Positions 6,698 through 8,733 of a stretch of DNA of 64,000 nucleotides are shown one piece after another. This stretch comes from Candidatus Gastranaerophilales bacterium (GTDB taxonomy: Bacteria > Cyanobacteriota > Vampirovibrionia > Gastranaerophilales > Gastranaerophilaceae): the NCBI GenBank assembly GCA_947625495.1, contig CANQOQ010000002.1:1-64000 (forward strand), written 5' to 3'. Under the pieces are notes generated by a model. That model was not told where the DNA came from. It saw only the letters and a program-made list of their open reading frames with translations, and ran no database searches. Made by a program: the position numbers and the translations under genes. The first letter of the stretch is position 1. Each line of letters starts with the position of its first letter.

Positions 6698-7969
6698 CTA
6701 ATTCATTACCCTTAAAAGGTTATCTATATTTTTGATTTTTTCTGATTTTAACAAGTCTTTTAAAGCATTTTGAACATCAGATTCCTTGCTCAATTCAGTT
6801 ATAACAACGATTTCAGCAGTATTATCTTCATTAATACCTTTTTGCATAATTGTTGAAATGTTAATATTATTATTGCCGCATACAGTACCGATTAAGCCTA
6901 TAACACCGGGGTTATTGCTTGCATTAATTGCAATATAATACTCGTTATAAGTATCACCTATATCAATTTGATTAGCATTTTCATTGTGGTTACATACTGA
7001 TTGAGGGAGCGGCTTATCAGATGTTTCAAGCTCGGAAGCCAAAACAAGTATATCCCCTACAACCGAGCTTGCAGTAGGTTCAGCACCTGCTCCTGGGCCT
7101 GTTAAAACCAGCTCGCCTACTGGATATCCTTTTAACATTATCGAATTAGTTGCATTATTTACTTTTGCAAGTAAATGTTTCTTTGCGACAAGCATAGGAT
7201 GAACTCTTACATCTATTGAACCATCATCAAGCACCTGACCTAAGGCTATAAGCTTAATTCTGTATCCTAAATCTTCCGCCGCTTTAATATCATGGGCGGT
7301 AATCTTTGTGATTCCTTCTCTGTATATTTTATCTATTGAAACTTTTTTGTTGAAAGATATCGTGGATAAAACAGCTATTTTATATGCCGCATCAAAGCCT
7401 TCGACATCACCCGTCGGGTCAGTTTCGGCATAACCAAGTTCCTGAGCCTGCTTTAGTGCTGTTTCATAAGATAAATTTTGTTCATGCATTTTGGTTAAAA
7501 TATAATTGGTAGTACCGTTTAAAATAGCGGCAATTTTAGAAATTTTATTTGCACATAATATCGTTTTTATAGGCATTATTATGGGAATACCGCCTGCGAC
7601 GGCAGCTTCATACAGAATAATTACGTTTTTTTCTTTCGCAAGCTGAAATAATTCGCTTCCTCTTTTAGCCAAAAGCTCTTTATTAGCGGTAACTATGTGT
7701 TTACCGTTGTTTATTGCCGTCGTCAGAAGTTCAAAAGCAGGGTTAACTCCGCCTGCTACTTCTATTACAACATCTATATCAGGATTATTAACTATATCAA
7801 AAGCATTTTCGGTTAATAACGAGGTATCAAAATTCTCTATTTCTCTTTTTTTATTTATATTTTTTACTGCTATTTTTTTTATTTCAATTTCTTTATGCGA
7901 TTGTAAAACCTTATAAACACCAGTTCCGACAGTGCCGAGGCCTATAATCCCGACTTGTAATTTTTTCAT
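6698..7969 (-). CDS. hom: Homoserine dehydrogenase
   Basis: 423 aa. It reduces aspartate semialdehyde to homoserine with NAD(P)H, the branch point to threonine and methionine. An N-terminal Rossmann motif GLGTVG (residues 10-15), the catalytic core with NGTTNYIL and PTGDVEGFDA, and a C-terminal ACT domain (about 345-420) are visible. The ACT domain implies allosteric control, classically by threonine in this enzyme family. It is not fused to aspartate kinase. AGGGAGA precedes ATG 7969. It is the first gene of the hom-thrC unit. Confidence 0.96.
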   Translation of the reverse strand: MKKLQVGIIGLGTVGTGVYKVLQSHKEIEIKKIAVKNINKKREIENFDTSLLTENAFDIVNNPDIDVVIEVAGGVNPAFELLTTAINNGKHIVTANKELLAKRGSELFQLAKEKNVIILYEAAVAGGIPIIMPIKTILCANKISKIAAILNGTTNYILTKMHEQNLSYETALKQAQELGYAETDPTGDVEGFDAAYKIAVLSTISFNKKVSIDKIYREGITKITAHDIKAAEDLGYRIKLIALGQVLDDGSIDVRVHPMLVAKKHLLAKVNNATNSIMLKGYPVGELVLTGPGAGAEPTASSVVGDILVLASELETSDKPLPQSVCNHNENANQIDIGDTYNEYYIAINASNNPGVIGLIGTVCGNNNINISTIMQKGINEDNTAEIVVITELSKESDVQNALKDLLKSEKIKNIDNLLRVMN

Positions 7970-8056: not shown

Positions 8057-8085
8057 AGTATAAAGATTTGTTACAAAATTAAGAA
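8057..8085 (-). promoter_or_regulatory. Possible sigma70 promoter for hom-thrC
   Basis: On the minus strand a TTCTTA -35 (8080-8085) and a TATACT -10 (8057-8062) are 17 bases apart. This would leave an untranslated leader of about 80 bases before hom. I see no clear riboswitch or attenuator fold in it. Confidence 0.35.
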
Positions 8086-8093
8086 CTTCTGAA

Positions 8094-8123
8094 TTTCACT
8101 TATTTTAAATGTTTTTATATAAA
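8094..8123 (+). promoter_or_regulatory. Possible promoter for the small repeated-peptide ORF
   Basis: TTTCAC (8094-8099), an 18-base spacer, then TATAAA (8118-8123). Transcription would start near 8130, about 30 bases before the ATG at 8160 and back to back with the hom promoter. Confidence 0.35.
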
Positions 8124-8159
8124 TGTGGAGAAAACCATCGGGGATATTGGGGAATCATT

Positions 8160-8390
8160 ATGGAATTACAATATGTTTCATTATTAAGCAGCAGCAAAAA
8201 CTCAAATTATGTTTCTTTACTGTCATCTTCTAATATGGGAGGAGAAACGGCAGGAAGTGTTGCAAATATATTCATAAATTCTTTTAATATAGCATTTATG
8301 GGAGGGGAAACAGCAGGTTCGGTCGCTTCAAGCTCTTTTGGTACAACATGTTCAACATCCACCAGCGGTTCATATTCTGCTGTTGCATAA
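8160..8390 (+). CDS. Small Ser/Gly-rich peptide with two internal repeats
   Basis: 76 aa starting at ATG 8160. I prefer this start over the upstream in-frame ATG 8109 because a GGGGA Shine-Dalgarno lies eight bases before it and a plausible promoter maps to 8094-8123. The peptide contains YVSLLSSS twice (starting at residues 5 and 17) and MGGETAGSVA twice (residues 26-35 and 46-55). It ends in a Ser/Thr/Gly-rich tail with a single Cys. No TM segment or ordinary signal peptide is visible. It is followed at once by a strong terminator, so it forms its own transcription unit. Repeated modules of this kind recall multi-core peptide precursors, but no maturation enzyme is adjacent. It could also be a short surface or regulatory peptide. 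Function unknown. Confidence 0.6.
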   Translation: MELQYVSLLSSSKNSNYVSLLSSSNMGGETAGSVANIFINSFNIAFMGGETAGSVASSSFGTTCSTSTSGSYSAVA

Positions 8391-8405
8391 TTTCTGTACA
8401 CAAAA

Positions 8406-8441
8406 AAAAGAGGGTGCTTTTTTGAAAAAGCACCCTCTTTT
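8406..8441. terminator. Bidirectional intrinsic terminator
   Basis: A near-perfect 16-bp stem (AAAGAGGGTGCTTTTT and its complement) with a 2-4 base loop, flanked by A-tracts and T-tracts. It lies between the small peptide ORF (+) and the convergent zinc-ribbon gene (-) and can serve both strands. Confidence 0.9.
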
Positions 8442-8451
8442 GTATTTAACA

Positions 8452-8733
8452 TTATTGTTGATTTTCAGCTTCTTTAATTGCAGCAAAACAGTCTTTGCAA
8501 TATACTTCCTTACCTTCAATTGGTTTAAAAGGAACTTTAGTCTGACAGCCGCATTTTGAACAAGTTACTTCATATAATTTTCTTCTGTTTTTTTGTCTTC
8601 TGTTCTTTCTGCATTCAGGGCAGCGTTTAGGTTTATTTACAAGACCTCTTTGTGCATAGAATTCTTGTTCACCTGCCGTAAACACAAATTCACTTCCGCA
8701 ATCTTCGCAAATAAGTTTTTCATCTTCGTACAT
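8452..8733 (-). CDS. Double zinc-ribbon protein (CxxC-x17-CxxC type)
   Basis: 93 aa with two treble-clef or ribbon units. The first (residues about 8-43) has CEDC and CPEC and matches the zinc-ribbon family found in many small bacterial proteins. A basic linker (RKNRRQKNRRK) follows. The second (about 58-84) has CSKC and CKDC 17 residues apart, the arrangement named CxxC-x17-CxxC. A strong AAGGAGAAA site precedes the ATG. The basic, zinc-bound design suggests nucleic-acid binding, but its role is not established. Confidence 0.85.
   Translation of the reverse strand: MYEDEKLICEDCGSEFVFTAGEQEFYAQRGLVNKPKRCPECRKNRRQKNRRKLYEVTCSKCGCQTKVPFKPIEGKEVYCKDCFAAIKEAENQQ

Follow-up and report, generated by a model that had tools for sequence, protein, structure and literature searches.

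Repeated ETxG peptides of the Gastranaerophilales: a selected gene family with a putative ancestral membrane-peptide partner

Background

Positions 8160-8390 of the DNA stretch studied here (64,000 nucleotides from a Candidatus Gastranaerophilales bacterium, below called the window) hold an open frame for a 76-residue peptide built from repeated modules. Is this a real gene, does it stand by itself, and what could such a peptide do? A literature search returned no account of small proteins in Gastranaerophilales, nor any occurrence of the string ETAGSVA, which the peptide contains twice. Below, G000 denotes the window's genome and G000-G040 the 41 sampled genomes of its genus.

Results and discussion

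A real peptide gene under selection

The gene (8160-8390, forward strand) was delineated by translation, homologue search and family alignment. Translation from the ATG at 8160 bears out the layout that had been predicted: two copies of YVSLLSSS (8172-8195 and 8208-8231) precede two copies of MGGETAGSVA (8235-8264 and 8298-8327), all on the forward strand, and the peptide, which has one Cys, ends in an S/T/G/C-rich tail (8328-8387, same strand) with the semi-conserved C-terminus GSYSAVA. A longer frame of 93 residues in the ORF listing starts at 8109, which falls within a conserved promoter block; in comparison with family members, the start codon of the relatives lies at the position equivalent to 8160 and not 8109. 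Just ahead of it a Shine-Dalgarno-like stretch is present as predicted (8148-8159, forward strand), with GGGGA 7-8 nt 5' of the ATG and AGGAG in most relatives.

Conservation is concentrated in the repeat. Among 24 aligned sequences, A31 and G32 of the first MGGETAGSVA copy are invariant and E29, T30 and A35 are kept in at least 90%, while E50, T51, A52, G53, S54 and A56 of the second copy are all invariant. The N-terminus varies across the family; still, most genus relatives retain a pair of the Y-V-S-L-L / V-S-L-F-S type, and most genus members show the C-terminal pattern [FY][STCN][AV][IVM]A. A terminal Cys is found in 6 of 60 family ORFs (the remainder end mostly in Ala). By eye no signal sequence is visible on the 76-residue peptide, and a search for known RNA elements across the window matched a tRNA only.

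Selection on the peptide, proposed originally from the repeats, is borne out as well. Between the two copies of MGGETAGSVA, 8 of 30 bases but none of 10 residues differ; between those of YVSLLSSS it is 12 of 24 bases and none of 8 residues, with AGC versus TCN serine switches among the changes. When an equal number of changes was placed randomly, the peptide remained unchanged in 2 (MGGETAGSVA) and 0 (YVSLLSSS) of 200,000 trials, a generous null given that the repeats came to notice through their residue identity. Since the copies differ in bases and never in residues, it is the peptide that is kept. In addition, of the 12 closest pairs, 10 have pN/pS values of 0.13-0.44 (the other two 0.94 and 1.19), and the median over 253 pairs is 0.61; distant pairs and the two closest outliers were judged misaligned or saturated and kept out of the selection claim, and L026 and L032 were omitted from the table. 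Relatives carry open frames or the unit is cleanly missing, and no broken peptide frame was seen at occupied or empty sites in the genus. Judged from its sequence, 8160-8390 is a real, selected peptide gene. The gene is short and of low complexity, yet a non-coding or chance ORF, its DNA retained for another reason, is hardly credible in view of the synonymous repeat divergence, the pN/pS values of the closest pairs, the open frames of the relatives and the motif maintained across families.

A family specific to Gastranaerophilales

Searched with the single peptide, 26 of 147 genomes match, at one place each. Within the genus, the peptide or a diverged member is carried by 27 of the 41 genomes (23 by single-peptide search, G008, G019 and G033 by profile, G040 by site reading). 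A profile of 24 sequences (E <= 0.05) finds the family in 133 of 383 Gastranaerophilales genomes, with up to 3 matches per genome, and all 70 matching genomes in a phylum sample of 386 (second profile, E <= 0.01) belong to this order. From 84,980 species' genomes at least 8 relatives were obtained; among those listed, 7 are titled Gastranaerophilales and one only 'Bacterium'. The homologues and variable repeat number that the original prediction proposed to look for were thus found, the motif E[TS]xG[ST][VIL]A being present in 1-7 copies per peptide: L070 has seven copies, and L072 (G052) has six FGGESAGSVA-type tandem units of 10 residues each. Fetched regions L136 and L141 contained no motif ORF; L132, L133 and L140 were left out of the analysis.

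The suspicion that the family may be new is upheld by the absence of matches to Pfam, NCBIfam, PHROGs and PDB chains. ETxG peptides solidly qualify, as far as sequence searches reach, as a Gastranaerophilales-specific family, previously unnamed and, as far as searched, undescribed. A phage or plasmid origin was rejected, as a search of plasmids and viral contigs returned no relative of the peptide.

Some further occurrences were noted. In genus g25, two longer proteins (L074:559-993, minus strand; L075:5974-6381, plus strand) have SFCGGETAGSVA at the N-terminus, followed by a membrane span and an amphipathic C-terminus, so that the motif is also present in another architecture. A genome from another family of the order holds a VAPT tandem-repeat ORF (L172, about 8277-8640, minus strand). 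The string GESAGS resembles the nucleophile elbow of esterases, a likeness that we take as chance resemblance of a short string.

A putative composite promoter and a shared terminator

Upstream of the gene we find a putative composite promoter (8069-8127, forward strand) consisting of a TGTTACAAAA block, a GAATTT block and a GTTTTTATATAAATGTG block, the blocks and their spacing being common to the family. The element TTTTTATA[TA] is present upstream of 45 of 60 distinct ETxG ORFs, and a weaker site upstream of 6 more (these ORFs were chosen by motif expression from the retrieved loci and form a selection, not a complete census). Anchored alignment of the 45 upstream regions gives TtAAgaa.TGTAAcaAAA-N-tGAatTt-N-aaA.tGTTTTTATATA.aTgtaa with constant spacing. 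When up to 3 mismatches are allowed, the window's own genome has 3 matches to the full pattern and the backward control 2; the best match (1 mismatch) is the site of the 8160-8390 gene. A simple sigma-70 scan yields 11 sites against 10.6 expected, thus nothing beyond chance. The promoter-like sequence claimed earlier therefore stands on block conservation across species, which supports a putative promoter common to the family, and draws nothing from the sigma-70 scan.

The GTTTTTATATAAATGTG element is also seen in the window's genome at L085 (G000:C4:73402) and L087 (G000:C8:32142), whose products, of 172 and 216 residues, gave no Pfam match above cut-off. It recurs in L065 and L066 with relatives of the L085 product. 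This suggests, at the level of sequence, a small regulon.

On the other side of the gene, a bidirectional terminator-like hairpin with a 17-nt perfect inverted repeat lies at 8406-8441, and a consensus terminator scan assigns it to the minus strand. The hairpin with its T-run remains at the empty sites of relatives that have no peptide gene, and because it persists there we regard it as common to the convergent zinc-ribbon gene, which it also, perhaps mainly, serves. The strong terminator that had been assigned to the unit is thus real, but it is not the peptide gene's alone.

Genomic neighbourhood and presence/absence

The zinc-ribbon gene (8452-8733, minus strand) encodes a zf_Tbcl / CxxC-x17-CxxC protein (PF13451 1e-22, PF23477 1.7e-16, TIGR04272 6.7e-17) and adjoins the ETxG locus across genera and families. 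At the other end lies a divergent homoserine-dehydrogenase-like (hom) gene (6698-7969, minus strand), named by eye from its sequence, as were all neighbours without a Pfam match. It is syntenic in most genus relatives, and the peptide gene is mostly situated between hom and the zinc-ribbon gene.

A zinc-ribbon probe of 17 genus genomes in which the peptide match was absent or weak found the gene in 14. Ten of these 14 sites are cleanly empty: hom and the zinc-ribbon gene are 106-203 bases apart there, and 495-920 at occupied sites (10 measured, including the diverged G019, G040 and G008). The latter three account for 3 further probed sites (G019 with GTAGTIA-type repeats), and in G021 the zinc-ribbon gene has another context. 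There, at L196, a 193-residue CHAP-type amidase-like ORF (by eye) stands beside it and the peptide is absent. Genes for ClpP, GrpE/DnaJ and GroESL adjoin the peptide locus in single lineages.

Probably one half of an ancestral bicistron

Outside the genus, a single-span membrane peptide of 46-49 residues directly follows the ETxG gene at 8 of 10 loci (it was not seen at L078 and L081). A profile of this membrane peptide (E <= 0.05) matches 33 of 98 genomes, many of them weakly. From 41 rows of that search 15 loci were chosen, the rest being mostly weak matches in long frames, or family f1 loci that were already covered; at all 15, spread over several families, an ETxG-type peptide (ETAG, ETSG, DTTG, ESTG or similar) precedes the membrane peptide. 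Its C-terminus, of the type ISAF[DN][GA], is conserved across families, and neither Pfam nor PHROGs gave a noteworthy match for the peptide. In size and topology it matches single-span microproteins such as CydX and KdpF; unlike these, it adjoins an ETxG peptide at each of the 15 loci and no large complex is encoded alongside.

In the window's genome no match to the membrane-peptide profile was obtained, and none was seen in the stretch downstream of the peptide gene; the membrane peptide therefore cannot be essential to the ETxG peptide there. Given the bicistron in other genera and families, the ancestral unit would have been two-gene, reduced to one in this genus; on the best reading, the window gene is the first half of an order-wide bicistron that has lost its second. 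Among the features by which we propose to recognize ETxG bicistrons, repeats in a short S/G/A/T-rich peptide and the composite promoter are both found at the 8160-8390 gene. The unit is thus self-contained, as first described, in so far as it is a single gene in this genus, but this appears to be a derived state.

A neighbouring protease and a proposed mechanism

In other lineages a short HtrA-like protease is found near the peptide. The form in L135 (4999-5712) belongs to Trypsin_2 (PF13365, 1.1e-32); its relatives measure 215-238 residues, share ~60-65% identity within the order and show no further domain beyond the protease domain. The protease is all but universal in the order and, at E <= 1e-15, matches 95 of 98 genomes. 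Best matches in order members reach E <= 2e-74, excepting G002 (no match), G015 (gene cut at a contig end) and G037 (weak match), and those in class outgroups are at best 2e-45, mostly in longer frames. An ETxG peptide lies beside the protease at 5 of 20 protease loci (G091, G094, G097, G099 and G051) and a diverged one at G044; the remaining 14 have no ETxG neighbour. A further case is G314 (L073), and the zinc-ribbon gene is beside the protease at 6 of the 20 loci. The adjacency is convergent and not operonic, it is not seen in the window's genus, and it may be one ancestral arrangement kept by descent. As the simplest reading of these gene orders, the ancestral locus would have had the peptide, then the membrane peptide, followed by the convergent zinc-ribbon and protease genes, the zinc ribbon being retained in the window.

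Our preferred reading, put forward tentatively, is that the ETxG modules are linear motifs handled by a conserved partner, with the HtrA-like protease as the leading candidate and the membrane peptide assisting. Each E[TS]xG[ST][VIL]A module would be a short linear motif, bound or cut singly by a partner conserved across the order, and the number of modules would set dose or valency; the short Trypsin_2 serine protease could be this partner and the membrane peptide its anchor or regulator. HtrA-type proteases prefer Val or Ile ahead of the cut site, and by analogy the [VIL]-A pair closing each module would suit such cleavage. The neighbouring protease belongs to Trypsin_2 like HtrA/DegP; it differs from these as an order-specific short form with the protease domain only, linked to the peptide by neighbourhood. 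It is because of gene neighbourhood only that the protease is named as lead partner. Several observations stand against it: an exported protease would face a peptide without a visible signal sequence (by eye), 14 of 20 protease loci have no peptide neighbour, and the membrane peptide is missing from the window's genome. The protease is, moreover, equally common in genomes without the peptide, so that presence/absence does not connect the two.

Alternative readings

According to the original prediction, the multi-core layout recalls ribosomally made peptide precursors. The repeats, spacers or S/T/G/C tail would then be modified by a distant enzyme, excised and exported, which we hold to be possible but doubtful. 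Short peptides with near-identical modules in variable number are also typical of cyanobactin and plesiocin-type graspetide precursors, the tail resembles azole-type cores, with many ETxG members having a G/S/C-rich tail like the linear azole peptides of the microcin B17 type, and a putative promoter of its own as well as up to 3 matches per genome would fit. Nonetheless, no maturase or transporter was recognized among the listed neighbours (by eye, some via Pfam), in line with the statement made at the outset that a modifying enzyme is lacking next to the gene, and conservation lies in the repeat and not in an N-terminal leader. Unlike the cyanobactin and plesiocin-type precursors, ETxG peptides have a membrane-peptide partner and are not associated with YcaO or graspetide ligases; against the microcin B17 type, most tested peptide-bearing genomes lack a YcaO cyclodehydratase and the ETxG repeat, not the tail, is conserved.

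YcaO matches occur in 16 of the 41 genus genomes; the peptide is found in 11 of these 16 and in 16 of the 25 without YcaO (Fisher p = 1); carriers G045, G056 and G058 gave no YcaO match either. As 16 of 27 peptide-bearing genus genomes have no YcaO match, YcaO was rejected as a general partner. A graspetide was likewise rejected (MvdD-type ATP-grasp ligase in 6 of 58 genomes and none in the window's genome). SPASM proteins are present in 53 of 58 genomes but missing from G106, which is 88% complete and carries the bicistron; the window's genome has 12 SPASM matches, those listed all being on other contigs. The SPASM distribution is uninformative, and a ribosomally made, modified precursor is not established. 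Double-glycine leader cleavage (GG|ETAG) was rejected because outside the genus E is preceded by P, V, A or other residues.

Two observations on such enzymes are recorded for their own sake. Three YcaO-family genes are found in the window's genome (G000:C1:199391-205158 and C22:10923-11984; L130, L131), with no ETxG ORF or obvious precursor beside them among the ORFs listed. At G000:C11:47662-52847, at least 3 SPASM radical SAM frames lie within about 5 kb, and similar clusters occur in many relatives.

AlphaFold2 gives the 76-residue peptide a mean pLDDT of 38.5 from the single sequence and 41.9 when 9 sequences are used, thus no confident fold; the peptide is apparently disordered and motif-bearing, although such low predicted scores also arise from shallow alignments. 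It might be argued that a G/S/A/T-rich peptide for which no fold is predicted, and which has 10-residue tandem repeats in G052 (L072), is a low-complexity polymer with a structural role, comparable to silk or amyloid, which would build assemblies on the surface or inside the cell and be anchored by the membrane peptide. We consider this quite unlikely: in most members there are no more than two or three modules, with variable spacers between them, no secretion signal is visible, and the nearly invariant E-T-A-G-S-V-A is kept more strictly than would be expected of a bulk polymer. A small antagonistic or signalling peptide, with the ancestral membrane peptide providing self-protection or export in a bacteriocin/immunity-like manner, would agree with the two-gene layout and with the repeated clean absence between species. 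It is very unlikely, however, as the C-terminus of the membrane peptide is conserved across families, contrary to typical immunity proteins, the window's genus lives without the membrane peptide, and plasmids and viral contigs yielded no relative.

Conclusions

Returning to the linear-motif reading, its fullest form would be an undescribed ancestral Gastranaerophilales system in which the peptide and membrane peptide act together with a protease that cuts or senses ETAGSVA, leading to a secreted or signalling product. Such a three-part system is unlikely on present grounds; if true, product dose would be tuned by repeat number. At a single site the gene is absent from 10 genomes and present in many others, and these natural pairs allow a comparative test of the effect of the peptide. 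Gastranaerophilales are gut-associated, non-photosynthetic relatives of Cyanobacteria, and in the ETxG peptides they have a family with its own putative promoter and a probable ancestral partner.
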